The position numbers were made by a program, and so were the translations under genes. DNA of 64,000 nucleotides from assembly GCF_030770395.1 (NCBI RefSeq), contig NZ_CP132480.1:2945387-3009386 (forward strand), read 5' to 3'. The stretch comes from Telluria beijingensis. Lineage in GTDB: Bacteria; Pseudomonadota; Gammaproteobacteria; Burkholderiales; Burkholderiaceae_D. Of this stretch, positions 50,653 through 58,267 are shown one piece after another. Under the pieces are notes generated by a model. That model was not told the origin of the DNA, made no database searches, and saw nothing but the letters and a program-made list of their open reading frames with translations. Position 1 is the stretch's first letter. The number at the start of each line of letters is the position of its first letter.

Positions 50653-51582
50653 ATGAACCGCAACGACATCAACTGGACCGGCTACATCCCGGCCATCACC
50701 ACCCCCTTCACCCGCGACGGCGCGATGGCATGGGACGACCTCGCCGCGCAGCTGGAGTGGTACGTCGAGCAGCGCATGCATGGCGTGGTCCTGGCCGGCA
50801 CCTCGGGCGAATGGTTCAGCATGAACGAGCACGAACGCGCCCAGCTGTTCGAAGAAGCCGGCCGCACCATCGACCGCCGCATCACCGTGCTGGGCGGCTG
50901 CAACGCTTATACCGCCGATGAAGCGATCCGCCATGCGCGCGCCGCCGAGAAGGCTGGCCTGGACGGCATCCTGCTGACCCCTCCCCCCTATATGGTGCCG
51001 AGCCGGCGCGAACTGGTCCAGTTCTACCAGGACGTCTCGGACGCCACCGACATCCCGATCTGCGTCTACAACTGGCCGCGCGGCTGCGTGGTCGACATGG
51101 ATACCGAGCTGCTGGGCGAGATCAGCGAGATCGACCACGTGGTCGCGATCAAGAATTCCACGCCCAACTTCGCCGGCTTCCTGGAAGGCCTGTACGCGCT
51201 GGGCAACAAGGTGCGCTACTTCAACGTGCCGACCTCGGAACTGGGCGCCGACCTGGTCTCGATCGGCCGCGGCGACGGCCTGATGGGCGCCGGCGGCGTG
51301 CTCGGTTCGGACCATCCCGACTTCTGGCGCCTGATCGAGAACGGCGACAAGGCCGGCGCGGTGGCGCTCGGCGCGCGCGACCGGGTAATCATGAAAGCCT
51401 GGTTCAACAAGGACTTCGCCGGCAACTTCGGCAGCGCCCAGGCCATCCTCAAGACCGCCCTGCGCCTGCGCGGTGTGCCGGCCGGCTACGTGCGCCGTCC
51501 GCTGCTCGACCTGACCCCGGCCGAGGTGGAACAGGTGCGCGCCACGCTCGAAGGCCTCGGCATCGAGACCGGCGCCGCGTGA
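50653..51582 (+). CDS. DapA (dihydrodipicolinate synthase) family lyase/deaminase
   Basis: 309-residue TIM barrel of the N-acetylneuraminate lyase superfamily. Schiff-base Lys in VVAIKNST near 166, GTSGEW near 49-54 in place of GTTGE, and the Tyr in VYNWPRG near 138. The GTSGEW and NWP variants point away from lysine synthesis toward catabolic members. In hydroxyproline degradation a DapA-type enzyme deaminates 1-pyrroline-4-hydroxy-2-carboxylate, and the three dehydrogenase genes just downstream have the form of the enzyme that makes it. So that step is the leading idea; other sugar-acid dehydratases in the superfamily remain possible. Stop overlaps the next start (GTGA). Confidence 0.85.
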   Translation: MNRNDINWTGYIPAITTPFTRDGAMAWDDLAAQLEWYVEQRMHGVVLAGTSGEWFSMNEHERAQLFEEAGRTIDRRITVLGGCNAYTADEAIRHARAAEKAGLDGILLTPPPYMVPSRRELVQFYQDVSDATDIPICVYNWPRGCVVDMDTELLGEISEIDHVVAIKNSTPNFAGFLEGLYALGNKVRYFNVPTSELGADLVSIGRGDGLMGAGGVLGSDHPDFWRLIENGDKAGAVALGARDRVIMKAWFNKDFAGNFGSAQAILKTALRLRGVPAGYVRRPLLDLTPAEVEQVRATLEGLGIETGAA

Positions 51583-52778
51583 AGCAGCCGCCCGCTCCCG
51601 CCGACAGCCGCGTCGTCGACACCCTGGTGATCGGCGGCGGCCTGCTGGGCAGCGCCGTTGCGTACTACCTGGCGCAGGCCGGCAGCCGCGTGCTGCTGGC
51701 CGAGAAGGACCAGATCAACCGCCAGGCCTCGGGCCAGAACGCGGGCAGCCTGCACTTCCAGCTCGAATACCGGATGATCGAGAACGGCCTGGAAGCGGCG
51801 CGCAAGGCGGCCGAGGCGATGCCGTTGCACCTGCATGCGCAGCAGGCCTGGGCGGGCCTGGAGCAGGAACTGGGCAGCCCGCTGGGCGTGGCCCAGCATG
51901 GCGGCTTCATGGTGGCCGAGACGCCGCAACAGGTCGAACGCCTGGCGCAAAAAGTCGAACTGGAACGGGCGAGCGGCCTGGTGACCGATCTGCTCGATGG
52001 CGACGAGGTGCGGCGCCGCGCGCCCTACCTGGGGCCGTCGATCCTGGCGGCCGCCTTCTGTCCCACCGAGGGCAAGGCCGATCCGCGCCGCTGCGCGCTG
52101 GCCTATGCCAATGCCGCCGTGCGCCTGGGCGCCGAGCTGCGCACCGCCTGCAGCGTCACCACGCTGGCCAGGACCGCGCACGGCTGGCAGGCCAGCCTGG
52201 AAGACGGCAGCAACTGCCGCGCCGCCACCATCGTGATCGCGGCCGGCGCCTGGTCGGGCCGGGTCGCGCAGATGGCCGGCACCGTACTGCCGGTCAGCCC
52301 GGTCGGCCTGACGATGACGGCTACCGCGCGCAGCGCGCCGCTGGTGTCGCACCTGGTGCAGCATGCCGGGCGGCGGCTGTCGATGAAGCAGACCGGCGAA
52401 GGCAATGTGTTGATCGGCGGCGGCTGGCCGGCGCGCCTGCACCAGGAACACGGCATCGTCGACCTGGAACGCAAGCCCGAACTGCTGCTGTCCTCACTGG
52501 CCGGGAATATGGCGGCCGCGGCCAGCGTGGTGCCCGGCGTGGCCCATTTGCCGGTGCTGCGCGTCTGGACCGGCATGACGGCGCTGATTGCCGACCAGTT
52601 GCCGCTGATCGGCGAAGTGCCGCGCGCGCCGGGCGCCTTCATCGCCACCGGCGGCTCTGCCTTCACGCTCGGCCCCACTTATGCCCGCGTGCTGGCCGAC
52701 AAGGTGCTCGGCAAGAGCCCCGTCTTCGACGTCAGCCGCTACGACCCCAACCGATTCGCGAGCCTGACCTTTGCTTAA
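51579..52778 (+). CDS. FAD-dependent oxidoreductase (DAO family), dehydrogenase subunit
   Basis: 399 residues from a GTG at 51579 overlapping the lyase stop. Rossmann dinucleotide motif TLVIGGGLLGSAVAYYLAQAG at about 15-35, then a D-amino acid oxidase-like substrate domain with QASGQNAGSLHFQLEYRM and a C-terminal VWTGMTALIADQLPLIGEVP segment. This is the HcnC/LhpB type of beta subunit that oxidises an amine or imino acid. It works with the small [2Fe-2S] and the large FAD subunits encoded next. The following gene starts 8 bp before its stop. Confidence 0.9.
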   Translation: MKQPPAPADSRVVDTLVIGGGLLGSAVAYYLAQAGSRVLLAEKDQINRQASGQNAGSLHFQLEYRMIENGLEAARKAAEAMPLHLHAQQAWAGLEQELGSPLGVAQHGGFMVAETPQQVERLAQKVELERASGLVTDLLDGDEVRRRAPYLGPSILAAAFCPTEGKADPRRCALAYANAAVRLGAELRTACSVTTLARTAHGWQASLEDGSNCRAATIVIAAGAWSGRVAQMAGTVLPVSPVGLTMTATARSAPLVSHLVQHAGRRLSMKQTGEGNVLIGGGWPARLHQEHGIVDLERKPELLLSSLAGNMAAAASVVPGVAHLPVLRVWTGMTALIADQLPLIGEVPRAPGAFIATGGSAFTLGPTYARVLADKVLGKSPVFDVSRYDPNRFASLTFA

Positions 52779-53061
52779 AACCCTTCGCATCCAACCCAAC
52801 GGCGGCGACGGCCTGCGCCCCGCGCCGGTCACCATTTTCGTCAATGGGGCCCCGACCACGGCCTATCCGGGCGAGACCGTCGCCACCGCCCTGCTGGCCG
52901 CCGGCAGCGCCCGTTTTCGCACCACGGCGCGCGGCGCGCCGCGCGCCCCTGTGTGCAATATGGGCGTGTGCTTCGAGTGCGCGGTGACGGTCGACGGCCG
53001 TCCCGGCACGCGCAGCTGCATGACCCTGGTCGCGGACGGCATGCGGATCGAGAGGTCCTGA
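52771..53061 (+). CDS. Small (2Fe-2S)-binding subunit of the dehydrogenase
   Basis: 96 residues from a TTG at 52771, overlapping the DAO gene by 8 bp. Ferredoxin-like fold: ITIFVNG-type strand (VTIFVNGAPTTAYPGETVATALLAAG) and the cluster ligands in CNMGVCFEC plus a later Cys in TRSCMTLV. Same layout as HcnA or the gamma subunit of hydroxy-D-proline dehydrogenase. Transfers electrons between the flavin subunits. Firm by context. Confidence 0.9.
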   Translation: MLKTLRIQPNGGDGLRPAPVTIFVNGAPTTAYPGETVATALLAAGSARFRTTARGAPRAPVCNMGVCFECAVTVDGRPGTRSCMTLVADGMRIERS

Positions 53062-54516
53062 ATGACTACCGAACACAATGAAGACTACGACCTGCTGGTG
53101 GTCGGCGCCGGGCCGGCCGGCCTGGGCGCGGCGCTGGAAGCGGCCGCGCGCGGCCTGAAGGTGGCCGTGGTCGACGAACAGCATGCGCCGGGCGGCCAGA
53201 TCTTCCGACAGCCCCCGGGCAGCTTCAAACAGCCCGAAGGCGGCGCAAAACTCGCCTATCCGTTCGGCCGCGAGCTGCTGCGGCGTGCGCGCGCCGACAC
53301 CCGCATCGCCTGGCATTACGGGACCATGGCCTGGGGCGTGTTCCGCGACCCGCAGCAGGAGTGCCTGCGGCTGGGCGTGAGCAAGAACGACGCCGGCGCC
53401 ATGCTGAACGGACGCGCGCTGCTGGTCGCCACCGGCGCCTATGACTTGCCGGTGGCCTTCCCCGGCTGGACCCTGCCCGGCGTGATGAGCGCCGGCGGCG
53501 TGCAGACCCTGCTGAAAAGCCAGTTCCTGCGTCCGGGCAGCCGCTTCGTGCTGGCCGGCTCGCATCCGCTGCTGCTGCTGGTGGCCGACCTGCTGCTGAC
53601 ATCCGGCGCCGAGGTGGCGGAAGTCGCGTTCGCGCGCCCGCGTCCCGCCATCGGAGAACTGCTGCGCGGCTGGCGCGCCGTGCCCGGCCATCTTGGCCTG
53701 ATGTTGCAGGCGGCGCGCGCCGCGTGGAACCTGAAGCGGCATGGGGTACCGCTGCGCTTCGGCAGCATGATCAAGGCCGCATCCGGCGCCGACGCCGTCG
53801 ACGGCGCGACCATGGTCGACGTCGACCGCGACTGGCGGCCGCTGCCCGGCACCGAACGCCATGTGGAGGCCGACACGCTGGTCATCGGCTACGGCCTGCT
53901 GGCATCGACCGAGCTGGCGCGCCAGGCCGGCTGCGCGGTCGACTACAAGCCCGATGAAGGCGGCTGGATCGTGCGCCGCGACGCCACCATGCGCAGCAGC
54001 GTGGACGGGGTCTGGGTGGCGGGCGAGCCGGGCGGCGTCGGCGGCGCCGAACTGGCCCACCTGGAGGGCCGGCTGGCGGCGCTGGACATCGCGCGCACGC
54101 TGGCGGCGCCTGGGCAGCGACCGGGTGACGACGAACTGGATGCCGTGCAGCGTGCGATCCGCAAGGCGCACCGCTTCAGCGACGTCGTGCGCGATTTCTT
54201 CGCCCCGAACATGGCGGCGCTGGCGCGGTTGGCCAGCGGCGATACATTGGTGTGCCGCTGCGAGGAAGTCAGCGCCGCCGAGGTTCGCGATTTCCTGGAC
54301 AGGAATCCGCACGTCAGCGACGTCAACAGCGTCAAGCTGGCCTGCCGCACCGGCATGGGCATGTGCCAGGGTCGCTATTGCCAGCACACGACCGCGCAGA
54401 TGCTCAGCGAAGCGACCGGCAAGCCGGTCGACTGCCTCGGCCACCACACGGCGCGGGCGCCGGTGAAACCGGTGTCGGTGATCAGTCTGGCGCAGTTGCA
54501 GGACACATTGAGGTAG
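53062..54516 (+). CDS. NAD(P)/FAD-dependent oxidoreductase with BFD-like domain, dehydrogenase subunit
   Basis: 484 residues. FAD motif LLVVGAGPAGLGAALEAAARG at about 10-31, PGGQIFRQP near 43, second nucleotide motif around LAGSHPLLLLVADLLL, and a C-terminal BFD-like [2Fe-2S] domain with CRCEEVSAAEVRDFLDR and CRTGMGMCQGRYC. This is the HcnB/OoxA/LhpE-type alpha subunit. The adjoining DAO and [2Fe-2S] genes complete a heterotrimeric membrane-linked amine dehydrogenase. Last gene of the rightward set; its stop is 5 bp from the convergent beta-lactamase stop. Confidence 0.92.
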   Translation: MTTEHNEDYDLLVVGAGPAGLGAALEAAARGLKVAVVDEQHAPGGQIFRQPPGSFKQPEGGAKLAYPFGRELLRRARADTRIAWHYGTMAWGVFRDPQQECLRLGVSKNDAGAMLNGRALLVATGAYDLPVAFPGWTLPGVMSAGGVQTLLKSQFLRPGSRFVLAGSHPLLLLVADLLLTSGAEVAEVAFARPRPAIGELLRGWRAVPGHLGLMLQAARAAWNLKRHGVPLRFGSMIKAASGADAVDGATMVDVDRDWRPLPGTERHVEADTLVIGYGLLASTELARQAGCAVDYKPDEGGWIVRRDATMRSSVDGVWVAGEPGGVGGAELAHLEGRLAALDIARTLAAPGQRPGDDELDAVQRAIRKAHRFSDVVRDFFAPNMAALARLASGDTLVCRCEEVSAAEVRDFLDRNPHVSDVNSVKLACRTGMGMCQGRYCQHTTAQMLSEATGKPVDCLGHHTARAPVKPVSVISLAQLQDTLR

Positions 54517-54520
54517 GCGG

Positions 54521-56095
54521 CTACAACAGGCCGAGCGACTGCAGCGCCGCCTTGCCGAGCGGGACCCGCTTGGCGGCCACCGTGTCGTCGGTGATGTCGA
54601 CATTCATGGCGAAGGCATACACCTTGCCGTCTTTTTCGACCCAGCCGACCCACCAGCCGATCTGGTTCTTGCGATCATCCGGCATATACCATCCGGTCTT
54701 GGCGTACAGATTGGCGGCGCCCTCCTGGCGAACGATCTCGCGCACCGCCGCCATCGCCGGCTTCGGGAACGGCAGCCTGTCCTGCGCCAGCCGGCCCAGG
54801 AAGCGCACCTGCTCGACCGCGCTGATCTTCAACGGTCCCTCGAGCCAGAAGGTGTCGATCGTGTTCCCAGCATTCATATTGCCGTAGTCGAGCTTGCGCA
54901 AGCCCTCGCGCATGCGCGGCATGCCGATGCGGCGCGCCAGTTCCTTGTAGACGGGGACGTTGGAGACCCTGATCGCTTCGCGCAACGGCATGTCCCTGGC
55001 CCATTGCGGCATGAGCGTGGGGCCGCCGCCGTAGGGAAGCACTTCGTCCACATCGGCCACGGCCCCGGCGTCCAGGCCGATCAGCGAGTTCGGAATCTTG
55101 AAGGTCGAGGCCGGGACGTAGCGGATGCTGGCGCGCTGGCGGTCGTGGCCGGTGAATTCGCCGGTGGCGACATCGTGCACGACCAGGGTGCCGGTCACGC
55201 CCGCTTTTTCGAACATCTCGCCGATCCGCGCATCGTCGCGCCACACGATCGGCGCCGTCTTCGCTTCCGTCGCCAGCGTCTTCGCCAGCCACGCGCGGCC
55301 CTTGTCGGCATAGGCGCGGCAGGCGCCCTTGTCGACAAGCGCGCCCCGCGCCTGGCGCTGCCACAGGCCGCTCGCCTCGGGATGGGCCGAGACCAGCACG
55401 TCGCAGGGCAGCGCCGCCACGCGCGCGATCGAGCGCTCGATGTCACGGCGCGCGGTCGGGTAGGCCGGATCGCCGCTGTAGCGGAAGGCGCCGGCGCCGA
55501 TGGCGGTCAGGCTGTCGGCATAGACCATGTCGACCGCCTTGCCCGCGGCCTGCGAGCGCCAGGTCCAGGTCGAGCCGCCCTGGGTGTGGCCCGGCGTCGC
55601 GTGCAGCGTGACGGCGAGCGGTCCGAGCTTGACGGTCTCGCCATCGCGCACCTCGGTCACCCTGGCGACCGGCGCCATGGCCGGCAGGCTGCCGTATTGC
55701 GGATCGCCGCGGCTGGCCTGCCCGCTGCGCAGCACCGGCGCCGCGGCCGGCGTCGCCTTCACCTCCGCGCCGGACAGGCGCTGCAATTCGGCGATCCCGC
55801 CCGCATGGTCCATGTGCTCGTGCGAGTTCAGGATGATGCGGATGTCCTCGACCTTGAAGCCGAGCTTGCGGACATTGGCTGCGATCAGCGGCGCCGCTTC
55901 GGCGGTGGCGCCATCGATCAGGATATGGCCGTCCTTCGACGCGACCAGCACCGAACTGAGACCGCGGGTGCCGACGTAATAGCTGTCGGCGGACAGGGCG
56001 AACGGTTCCTGCGGCGTGTTCCAGTCATCGGCCGTCGCGGGTGCGACGCACGTGACGAGGCCAGCCGCGGCGAATGCCAGGCTTGTGAGCTTCAT
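54521..56095 (-). CDS. Bifunctional beta-lactamase: subclass B3 metallo-enzyme fused to class D (OXA) enzyme
   Basis: 524 residues in one open frame. Signal peptide at 1-22. Residues about 25-275 are a B3 metallo-beta-lactamase: zinc ligands HEHMDH at 92-97, H170 in TPGHTQGG, S195 in VYADSLT and H238 in VSAHPEASGLW, so both zinc sites are complete. Residues about 280-524 are a class D enzyme: STFK at 330-333, SNV at 378-380, YGN at 404-406, KTG at 466-468 and IGWWVGW. Almost no linker separates the halves and there is no second signal peptide. Both active sites look functional, so it should hydrolyse a broad range including carbapenems. A fusion of this type from Massilia (MSI-OXA) is, to my memory, already described. 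Third gene of blaI-blaR1-bla, 10 bp after blaR1. Confidence 0.93.
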   Translation of the reverse strand: MKLTSLAFAAAGLVTCVAPATADDWNTPQEPFALSADSYYVGTRGLSSVLVASKDGHILIDGATAEAAPLIAANVRKLGFKVEDIRIILNSHEHMDHAGGIAELQRLSGAEVKATPAAAPVLRSGQASRGDPQYGSLPAMAPVARVTEVRDGETVKLGPLAVTLHATPGHTQGGSTWTWRSQAAGKAVDMVYADSLTAIGAGAFRYSGDPAYPTARRDIERSIARVAALPCDVLVSAHPEASGLWQRQARGALVDKGACRAYADKGRAWLAKTLATEAKTAPIVWRDDARIGEMFEKAGVTGTLVVHDVATGEFTGHDRQRASIRYVPASTFKIPNSLIGLDAGAVADVDEVLPYGGGPTLMPQWARDMPLREAIRVSNVPVYKELARRIGMPRMREGLRKLDYGNMNAGNTIDTFWLEGPLKISAVEQVRFLGRLAQDRLPFPKPAMAAVREIVRQEGAANLYAKTGWYMPDDRKNQIGWWVGWVEKDGKVYAFAMNVDITDDTVAAKRVPLGKAALQSLGLL

Positions 56096-56105
56096 GAAGA
56101 TATCC

Positions 56106-57827
56106 TTAGGTGGTGGTTTGGAGCGCGTCCAGCCTTGCCGGGAGTTCGCGCAGGAAGGCTTGCTTCAACAGCGGGCCGGCGGCCCCGCGTTCCTGGCGCG
56201 GTTCGAGGACCATGCGCGCGAACACGATCGTGCGACCTTCCTTGCTGGCCCAGCCGACGAACCAGCCATACGCAAGATGCGGGTCGGCCACGCCATCGCG
56301 CGGGGCCAGGAAGGCGGTGCCGGTCTTGGCATGCACGTTCCAGCCATTGGGCAGGTCGGGCAGCCGCAGCAGGGTGGCCGTCATGTCGTAGGCCTGGGGC
56401 TTCAGGCCCAGTTCGCGCCGGACCAGCTTGCGCAGGAAGGCGGTCTGCTCGCGCGGCGATATCTGCAGAGACGATCCGATCCAGGACTCGGCCACGCCGC
56501 CCGACAAGTCCTGGTTGCCGTAGTCGAAACGCCGCAGGTACGACTGCAGGCCATTGAGGCCGAGGCGGGTCGTGACCTCCTGCGCATACCAGACCGTCGA
56601 ATGGCGGATCCAGCCCGTGGGGTCGGTCGTGGTGCGCCAGGCCGGCAGCCAGTCGGCATAGCCCTGCCTGAACGGCAGCGCCGGCGAATGCGTGTCGTGC
56701 AGGATACCGGCGTCGTAGCCCAGCAGGCTGACCGCGATATTGAAGGTGGACGCGGGCGTGACGCGCGCGCCGCAGTCGCCCTGCTCCACCAGCCGTTCGC
56801 CGCTGGCGGCGTCGAGCATGATGGTGCAGTCGAGCCGGAATGGTGCGCTGGTCCAGGCCAGCGCGGGCTGCAGCGCCAGGTTGCCGCCGAAGGCCAGCGC
56901 CAGGATGGCGAGGCCGGCGCCGCGGCTCCACAGCGCATGGCGCGTTGCGGCGGGAGCACGGATCAGTTCGACCCGGGCCGCCAGCGTATTCGGGCTGACG
57001 CCGCCAAAGGCCAGCGCGCCATGTGCGGCATGATGCTGCATGCGCAACTGGGCCACCAGCGCGGCGGCATAGGCGCGGCGTTCGGCTTGCGGCCGGCCGC
57101 GCAGCACGTCGCGGTCGCAACCGAGTTCCTGGGCCCACGTGAGTCGTTCGCGCAGCCGGCGCATGGCGGGGTTGAACCAGCACAGCGCCTGCAGCATGGC
57201 GCCCACCGTACACCACCACAGGTCGCCGCGGCGCCAGTGCGTGAGTTCATGGGCCACGATCAGTTCGCGCTGCAGCGCAGGCATATCGCGCAGGGAGCGC
57301 GGCAGCAGCAGGCGCGGCTTGAACGGGCCGACCAGCATCGGCGGAATCGGGGCGTCGACTTCGATCATGGCCGGCAGCGCCGCCGCCTGGCGCGCGCCGC
57401 CTTGCGCCAGGCGTTCCAGCATGCGCTGGCCCTGCCACAGGCGGCCCAGCATCCAGGCCAGGCCGGCCACGTAGGCCAGAACCCAGGCCCAGGCCAGCCA
57501 CGCCAGCCAGGAACGCTGGCCTGCGTTGGCAAGCGGCGTGACCGCCCCGACGTCCTGCTCCGGCTGCGCCGCAGGCAGGCTCGCCGCCGCGTTCACGTCC
57601 ACTTCGAACACGGGCAGCATGTTCACCTGCTGTCCCGGGGGCGCCAGCAGCAGCATGAAGGTGGCCGCGATCGCCAGCTGCGCCAGCAGCCAGGTCGAGC
57701 GCTGCATGCCCAGCGCCGGCAGCCAGCGCCGCGCCAGCCCGGCCGCGCCCCACACCGCCAGCCCCGCCGCCAGGCAGCCGAGGCTGGCGAACAGGAAGCG
57801 GATGGCCAGCTGGTCGGGCGCCGTCAT
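56106..57827 (-). CDS. blaR1: BlaR1-like M56 sensor protease with class D-type sensor domain
   Basis: 573 residues from the ATG at 57827. N-terminal membrane part with helices at about 8-30, 46-62, 108-128 and 303-320. M56 zinc protease site HELTH at 193-197 and third ligand Glu 234 in QELGCDRD. The periplasmic C terminus (about 325-573) is an OXA-like penicillin sensor: STV at 410-412, YGN at 436-438, KTG at 501-503, but the first motif is S-T-F-N at 360-363, with Asn where the carbamylated Lys of SxxK is expected. Overlaps the blaI stop by 4 bp. Should detect beta-lactam and trigger cleavage of BlaI; the missing Lys may alter acylation. Confidence 0.9.
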   Translation of the reverse strand: MTAPDQLAIRFLFASLGCLAAGLAVWGAAGLARRWLPALGMQRSTWLLAQLAIAATFMLLLAPPGQQVNMLPVFEVDVNAAASLPAAQPEQDVGAVTPLANAGQRSWLAWLAWAWVLAYVAGLAWMLGRLWQGQRMLERLAQGGARQAAALPAMIEVDAPIPPMLVGPFKPRLLLPRSLRDMPALQRELIVAHELTHWRRGDLWWCTVGAMLQALCWFNPAMRRLRERLTWAQELGCDRDVLRGRPQAERRAYAAALVAQLRMQHHAAHGALAFGGVSPNTLAARVELIRAPAATRHALWSRGAGLAILALAFGGNLALQPALAWTSAPFRLDCTIMLDAASGERLVEQGDCGARVTPASTFNIAVSLLGYDAGILHDTHSPALPFRQGYADWLPAWRTTTDPTGWIRHSTVWYAQEVTTRLGLNGLQSYLRRFDYGNQDLSGGVAESWIGSSLQISPREQTAFLRKLVRRELGLKPQAYDMTATLLRLPDLPNGWNVHAKTGTAFLAPRDGVADPHLAYGWFVGWASKEGRTIVFARMVLEPRQERGAAGPLLKQAFLRELPARLDALQTTT

Positions 57828-58207
57828 GGCGCGGCGTCCTTCTCGACCGGCCAGTCGTTCAGCAGTTGCTCCAGGCGCGCCAGTTCGGCATCGTCGACCA
57901 GTTTGCTGCCGGTGAACATATTGACCGGCAGCGGCGTATCGATCTCCATCACGCGCCGGCCGAAGTCGTGGGCAAAAGCGGCCAGCGTGTCGACCTTGTC
58001 GCTCACCGCCTCGTACACCTGCACGCCGTGACGCTGCTCCTGGCGCACCATGTCTTTTTCGAGCATGCGTTCGAGCGTCTTGCGGGTCGACGAATACGAC
58101 CACGCCATCTCTCCGACGACCGCGTCGTGGATTTCGCGGGCGCTCAGCGGCTGCTGGCGCCACAGGGCCTTGAGCAGACTCAGTTCGGAGATCGAGGGGA
58201 CGGCCAT
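57824..58207 (-). CDS. blaI: BlaI/MecI/CopY family repressor
   Basis: 127 residues from the ATG at 58207. Winged helix at about 5-75 (SISELSLLKALWRQQPLSAREIHDAVVGEMAWSYSSTRKTLERMLEKDMV) and a helical dimer domain (FGRRVMEIDTPLPVNMFTGSKL; VDDAELARLEQLLND). Start of the operon blaI-blaR1-bla. Binds the palindromic sites upstream (58222-58257) and is removed when BlaR1 senses drug. Confidence 0.94.
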   Translation of the reverse strand: MAVPSISELSLLKALWRQQPLSAREIHDAVVGEMAWSYSSTRKTLERMLEKDMVRQEQRHGVQVYEAVSDKVDTLAAFAHDFGRRVMEIDTPLPVNMFTGSKLVDDAELARLEQLLNDWPVEKDAAP

Positions 58208-58221
58208 GACAAACACTCCAT

Positions 58222-58257
58222 TGCGACGATTGACGCAATGATGCGACAACTGTCGCA
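58222..58257. promoter_or_regulatory. Tandem BlaI operators
   Basis: TGCGACA-AC-TGTCGCA (58242-58257) is a perfect 7-bp palindrome inside the promoter spacer; TGCGACGATTGACGCA (58222-58237) matches it at 13 of 16 positions and covers the predicted start site. The sites are 20 bp apart centre to centre. Confidence 0.8.
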
Positions 58258-58267
58258 CAGCTGTCAA
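58238..58267 (-). promoter_or_regulatory. Promoter of the bla operon
   Basis: On the minus strand a perfect TTGACA (58267-58262), 18-bp spacer and CATCAT (58243-58238). The first operator fills the spacer. Confidence 0.7.

Follow-up and report, generated by a model that had tools for sequence, protein, structure and literature searches.

A B3/class D beta-lactamase fusion, probably formed in place from two adjacent genes, in a BlaI/BlaR1-type operon of Telluria beijingensis

We report that one gene of Telluria beijingensis encodes a complete subclass B3 metallo-beta-lactamase domain followed, in the same reading frame, by a complete class D (OXA) beta-lactamase domain, and that it forms the last gene of an operon of the BlaI/BlaR1 type (Table 1). 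It lies in a 64,000-nucleotide stretch of contig NZ_CP132480.1, which is called the window below. We consider it likely, with a probability of about 0.8, that the gene specifies an inducible, exported and bifunctional beta-lactamase that arose when two neighboring genes fused in place. What we say of its export, the activity of its two halves, its induction, its substrates and any benefit of the fusion is predicted from sequence. The fusion would be a natural single-chain metallo/serine beta-lactamase in which two unrelated mechanisms are joined, and fused and separate genes occupy the same place in relatives, so that the advantage of fusion is directly testable.

Table 1. Positions in the window of the fusion gene, its domains, the upstream regulatory genes and the candidate control signals
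Feature	Coordinates	Strand	Evidence
B3-class D fusion beta-lactamase, 524 aa	54521..56095	(-)	Open frame; both domains above NCBIfam cut-offs; conserved catalytic residues; AF2 and Foldseek
B3 metallo-beta-lactamase domain, about residues 23-278	55262..56029	(-)	NF033105 on residues 24-277; best solved relative MEM-A1, 6e0s
Short linker, about residues 279-284	55244..55261	(-)	Site of the B3 stop, OXA start and OXA signal peptide in unfused relatives
Class D (OXA) domain, about residues 285-524	54524..55243	(-)	NF012161 on residues 291-523; OXA-85 fold
blaR1-like gene, 573 aa: M56 protease and class D-like sensor with S-T-F-N for SxxK	56106..57827	(-)	Pfam PF05569 and PF00905; translation
blaI-like repressor gene	57824..58207	(-)	Pfam PF03965 Penicillinase_R, 67.2 bits against 22.6; 4-base overlap with blaR1
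Second dyad copy, imperfect, two mismatches	58222..58237	(-)	Sequence
CATCAT, possible -10 box	58238-58243	(-)	18 bases on from TTGACA
Perfect dyad TGCGACA-GT-TGTCGCA, putative BlaI operator	58242..58257	(-)	Sole perfect copy in genome; upstream of blaI in relatives
TTGACA hexamer, possible -35 box	58262..58267	(-)	Sequence; TTGAC[AG] conserved in six rows aligned

One frame carries two complete beta-lactamase domains

The fusion gene starts with ATG and, according to the open reading frame list and the translation, runs without interruption to the end of its 524-residue product. From N to C terminus, this product is composed of a signal peptide, the B3 domain, a linker of a few residues and a class D domain of the OXA-50/60 type. 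The B3 half scores 313.6 bits against the NCBIfam model bla_subclass_B3 (cut-off 240) and the class D half 276.6 bits against bla_class_D_main (cut-off 250), in agreement with the Lactamase_B and Transpeptidase domains found by Pfam. The single uninterrupted B3/class D frame described in a first-pass annotation of this DNA is thus borne out, coordinates included, by open frame, translation and profiles; that annotation left aside the content of the BlaI/BlaR1 operon, the unfused orthologues at this place and a second group of fusions, which are treated below. Among solved structures, the closest by sequence is MEM-A1 (6e0s) over residues 7-278 and, over residues 291-515, a class D enzyme (4ied). 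An AF2 model made with 30 fusion sequences reached a mean pLDDT of 83.4 and a pTM of 0.68; in Foldseek comparisons its B3 half matched MEM-A1 (TMt 0.94, 62% identity) and its class D half OXA-85 (TMt 0.90, 43% identity). Fold and catalytic residues of MEM-A1 and SMB-1 (B3) and of OXA-50, OXA-60 and OXA-85 (class D) match the respective halves, but all of these are separate enzymes.

The same annotation had also proposed one signal peptide and nearly no linker, and both hold: a single putative signal peptide can be read by eye at the N terminus, and in the model the C-terminal helix of the B3 domain (residues 258-279) gives way almost at once to the first class D strand (residues 284-287), so that the linker would measure about 4-6 residues. 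With a pTM of 0.68, the model does not settle how the two domains are placed relative to each other.

A database search for fused B3-class D entries, as the annotation had advised, did find them. Among the best 120 of 5597 protein matches, 31 full-length fusion proteins are 74-100% identical to the window protein (group G1), with 100% query cover; a further 17 (P0034-P0050) are 54-61% identical (group G2), and four entries are fragments (P0032, P0033, P0051 and P0052). Five of the 62 genomes compared in the genus likewise have this frame open over its full length. An assembly or frame artefact that joined two real adjacent genes is suggested by nothing except that relatives do carry two adjacent genes at that place; the same frame is open in those five genomes and in the 31 listed proteins, and a base error would not account for the loss of the OXA signal peptide. 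We regard an artefact as extremely unlikely.

Both active sites are conserved and both halves are under purifying selection

Catalytic residues were compared in an alignment of 30 fusions that are 55-100% identical to the window protein. It was derived from 35 rows (A1) by removing five fragments or entries with a changed frame (P0032, P0033, P0049, P0051 and P0052), and the resulting set (A2) draws 14 rows from the 31 full-length G1 proteins and 16 from the 17 G2 proteins among the matches listed. The zinc ligands H92, H94, D96, H97, H170 and H238, which make up the HxHxDH motif and two further histidines, are invariant. The class D half holds the full set of motifs, S330-T-F-K333, S378-N-V, Y404-G-N, the omega-loop tryptophan W417 and K466-T-G; of these, S330, K333, S378, N379, V380, Y404, G405, W417, K466 and G468 are invariant, and N406 and T467 are at least 90% conserved. 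KPG replaces KTG in P0040, and YGS replaces YGN in P0005. The earlier reading of two intact active sites (HEHMDH, H170 and H238; STFK, SNV, YGN and KTG) therefore stands, its residues being present here and conserved among the 30 fusions. These residues suggest that the B3 half is a zinc-dependent hydrolase and that the class D half works as a serine acyl-enzyme with a carboxy-lysine.

Both halves are under similar purifying selection: in ten pairs from the five fusion genomes (Nei-Gojobori), dN/dS is 0.11-0.27 for the B3 half and 0.10-0.21 for the OXA half, and 0 to 1.13 for the short signal peptide. These values bear on the view that just one half is an active beta-lactamase, the other being retained as a scaffold or a substrate trap. 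Fusions can retain a domain for stability, and the class D motif changes in P0040 and P0005 would fit an idle serine half; against this, the residues of both active sites vary little or not at all (invariant or at least 90% conserved) among the 30 fusions and dN/dS is low on both sides of the linker, and we consider a single active half quite improbable. If both halves are active, the zinc half should act on penicillins, cephalosporins and carbapenems, and the serine half should add oxacillin-type penicillins and still work under zinc scarcity; the protein may then also withstand zinc chelators or serine inhibitors given singly, as the first-pass annotation had proposed.

One related entry departs from the pattern: P0054, from Massilia sp. 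UYP11 (on a contig of 169588 bases), has a B3 half 80% identical to that of the window and reads otherwise beyond the B3 domain. It looks like a disrupted copy of the fusion, although the change may come from a sequencing error.

The fusion probably formed in place from a tandem pair

In the census of 62 genomes of the genus, five carry the fusion and six (G008, G009, G011, G038, G039 and G049) carry separate, adjacent B3 and OXA genes after blaR1. The fused gene occurs in the named records of Massilia timonae CCUG 45783, M. arenae and Massilia sp. HP4, and the unfused pair in those of M. aurea (two strains), Massilia sp. YIM B02443 and Oxalobacteraceae sp. CFBP 13730. All seven of these loci (L021-L025, L027 and L028), fused and unfused, share the upstream order PfaD-YajQ-MurB-SDR-BlaI-BlaR1. 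In the unfused L006, L024, L025 and L028, there is a four-base overlap between B3 stop and OXA start; in the likewise unfused L027, the first possible OXA start overlaps the B3 gene, and a later start leaves a short gap. The unfused OXA protein begins with a signal-like peptide of its own, which the fusion lacks.

The simplest history, and the most likely one, is that the fusion formed in place from such a tandem pair. The ancestral operon would have been blaI, blaR1, a B3 gene and an OXA gene, an arrangement that persists in relatives, and the fusion lineage would have lost the stop/start junction together with the OXA signal peptide. With junction and peptide gone, a single exported chain would carry one two-zinc hydrolase for every serine (carboxy-lysine) acyl-enzyme hydrolase.

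We built trees of the two domains separately, the B3 tree being a quick one of 73 rows and the OXA tree a careful one of 55 rows, after seven long-branched rows had been dropped from 62. Unfused genes supplied 36 rows of the B3 tree (28 of the 68 proteins listed as P0053-P0120 and eight of ten loci, L016 and L017 being absent; the B3 row of L014 was trimmed to a start picked by hand) and 26 rows of the OXA set (11 proteins and 15 loci, L056 being absent), seven of which were removed for the careful tree. G1 and G2 are separate in both trees, with unfused genes closer to each, and a single clade of G1 plus G2 is rejected for the B3 half (AU p 0.007) as well as for the OXA half (AU p 0.00026). 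They also stand apart in a quick OXA tree of all 62 rows, made without an AU test. The B3 halves of G1 group with the tandem B3 genes of the M. aurea type, and the OXA halves of G2 group with the tandem OXA genes of that type (support 90/92 in the careful tree), in which G2 alone has 59% bootstrap and the unfused OXA P0118 sits with it. Since both domain trees reject a common clade, fusion probably happened at least twice; the two trees place the tandem genes differently relative to G1 and G2, so a simple history for each locus is not assured.

The rival account has one ancestral fusion giving rise to both groups, with the unfused genes produced by fission or recombination rather than at least two independent fusions. 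The join lies at a nearly identical place in G1 and G2, P0118 falls with G2, and the discordant placement of the tandem genes in the B3 and OXA trees is what recombination would leave. However, both trees reject one clade; the halves of the window protein are nearer to unfused genes (up to 72% identity for B3 and 68% for OXA) than to G2 (at most 61% and 65%, respectively); and fission would require a new stop, a new start and a new OXA signal peptide. We find a single ancestral fusion unlikely and prefer at least two fusion events. Hosts and operons of G2 did not turn up, neither in searches with P0001 of 62 genomes of the genus and 392 of the family nor in searches with P0037 of 74, 17 and 5 genomes of three other genera; these genome sets overlap, and an empty answer without a positive genome carries no weight.

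A BlaI/BlaR1-type operon with a putative operator

The operon reads blaI-blaR1-bla, all genes co-directional and the fusion last, as expected of BlaI/BlaR1 control, and blaR1 ends 10 bases before the fusion starts. The perfect dyad upstream of blaI is the one copy in the 6.02 Mb genome. The dyad recurs before blaI in L021-L025 and L028, relatives both fused and unfused; L027 has an imperfect version of it, and it is also present at other bla loci of the family. A slightly looser version was found in 19 of 189 loci, and its reversed control in none (1.26 Mb); these loci were picked for their bla genes and some overlap, and the dyad alignment comprises six of the eight loci intended. The conserved dyad suggests a single BlaI regulon across the family, and it may be the site to which BlaI binds. 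A wider dyad regulon within this genome is not supported, as matches with up to two mismatches numbered 28 (forward) vs 26 in the reversed control.

The conserved dyad, roughly TGYGACANNTGTCRCA (58222-58257 (-) in the window), stands upstream of bla or blaI genes. The loci that carry it are L021-L025, L027 (imperfect), L028, L110, L120, L121, L123, L127, L132, L172-L174, L177 and L178.

In the proposed course of induction, BlaR1 would sense a beta-lactam and, through its M56 protease, end the repression that BlaI exerts at the dyad ahead of blaI, whereupon the operon would be expressed.

The BlaR1 sensor has asparagine in place of the SxxK lysine

Like the BlaI/BlaR1-blaZ systems of S. aureus and B. 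licheniformis, the operon has a Penicillinase_R repressor and an M56 receptor, the latter with both the HExxH protease motif and a penicillin-binding-type sensor. Unlike in those systems, the sensor is class D-like: it scores 277.4 bits against the NCBIfam profile of class D enzymes, just below the cut-off of 280, and 138.5 bits against blaR1_generic (cut-off 400). It also has asparagine where the receptor of S. aureus has the SxxK lysine K392. In S. aureus BlaR1, the serine is primed by K392, and a lasting acyl complex depends critically on decarboxylation of this lysine (PMC5957439); the sensor of the window is devoid of this lysine, and induction by the textbook route is therefore uncertain. 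The asparagine is present in 121 of 121 rows (the query and the best 120 of 710 homologues), and more distant BlaR1 homologues may differ, as these 120 are the closest of the 710. Among the operons read, 16 of 17 genomes have asparagine and one, G054, has lysine. With its SxxN motif, the receptor poses a clear question as to the way in which BlaR1 proteins of this group sense beta-lactams.

The sensor has the look of a class D enzyme converted to a receptor, the tree being silent on which came first. Many of these S-x-F-N receptors bear the database name class D beta-lactamase. Derivation of the OXA half from the neighboring BlaR1 sensor was rejected: the two are 34% identical and belong to different class D lineages.

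Relation to known fusions and to MSI-1

Class C-class D fusions with BlaR1-type genes nearby are described in Massilia, Duganella and Janthinobacterium (PMC5967600). LRA-13 and its homologues resemble the window enzyme in having two complete beta-lactamases per chain, in their occurrence in Oxalobacteraceae and in the BlaR1/BlaI genes nearby (PMC5967600). LRA-13, however, joins two serine enzymes (classes C and D), whereas the window protein is a zinc enzyme (B3) followed by a serine enzyme, and the LRA-13-type class D/class C fusions are another lineage than the B3-class D fusions. In its accessible text, a survey of 24,916 OXA-domain proteins records as long beta-lactamase homologues only fusions with class C, three N-terminal extensions and a single fusion with a crotonase; M56-class D proteins are noted there in Oxalobacteraceae, and neither a B3-class D fusion nor the BlaR1 asparagine is mentioned in that text (PMC9045261). 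Our literature search, with most subscription papers beyond its reach, found no report of a B3-class D fusion. Public databases do contain the M. timonae fusion protein, under the name of a hypothetical protein or of a metallo-beta-lactamase-type one.

The first-pass annotation had named an enzyme of Massilia, MSI-OXA, as a possible precedent for the fused form, which is probably mistaken. MSI-1 (NF000456) is the best B3-kind match of the fusion, at 399.2 bits well below the cut-off of 550. The B3 protein of L027 scores 544.4 bits against this model, just under the cut-off, and a class D gene adjoins it; in this locus B3 and OXA are two genes, whereas in the window they are one. In the paper on M. 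oculi MSI-1, that gene is said to overlap a separate putative OXA gene. Given this reported overlap and the two genes of L027, MSI-1/MSI-OXA most likely represents the unfused form. The name MSI derives from Massilia oculi (PMC10740994).

Other beta-lactamase sets in the genome and the family

Compared with its own genome, the fusion matches three places only: itself, the BlaR1 sensor and one weak metallo-beta-lactamase-fold protein. In a search that covered subclass B3 and classes A, C and D, the genome has no other B3 or class D enzyme, and all matches to class A and class C profiles are below cut-off. In the plasmid collection, 80% of the fusion is covered at no place in any of the 4747 records with a match (0 of 4747), and this collection thus gives no hint that the fused gene is mobile. 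Nor did anything point to a mobile element at the locus in a comparison that covered the upstream genes, which relatives share, and tRNA genes, none of which was found in the window.

Elsewhere in the family, blaI-blaR1 is followed by a B3 gene and then a class C gene (L173 and L174), by a class C gene alone (L176) or by a B3 gene and another class D gene (L177), and in L175 BlaI-BlaR1 is divergent to class C. Together with the two fusion groups, these loci invite a wider picture: in Oxalobacteraceae, zinc and serine beta-lactamases would have fused into one exported chain at least twice independently; B3 plus class D, B3 plus class C, class C alone and a class D-class C fusion would all stand under one family-wide BlaI regulon; and BlaR1 would be a class D enzyme made into a receptor by an invariant change of the SxxK lysine to asparagine, sensing beta-lactams without a carboxy-lysine. 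We put this forward tentatively, at somewhat below even odds.

Positions 1133-5250 of L172 hold an LRA-13-like fusion in which class D precedes class C and which is divergent to blaI-blaR1. Its class D half groups with the BlaR1 sensors, and the idea that the OXA half of the window is an LRA-13-type class D domain was rejected.

Convergent on the bla operon of the window, at 50653-54516 (+), lie genes for a DHDPS-family aldolase, a DAO oxidase, a 2Fe-2S protein and a FAD/BFD oxidoreductase, which we take to resemble an amino-acid catabolic set. Among the eight loci compared, these downstream genes were met again only in L023.
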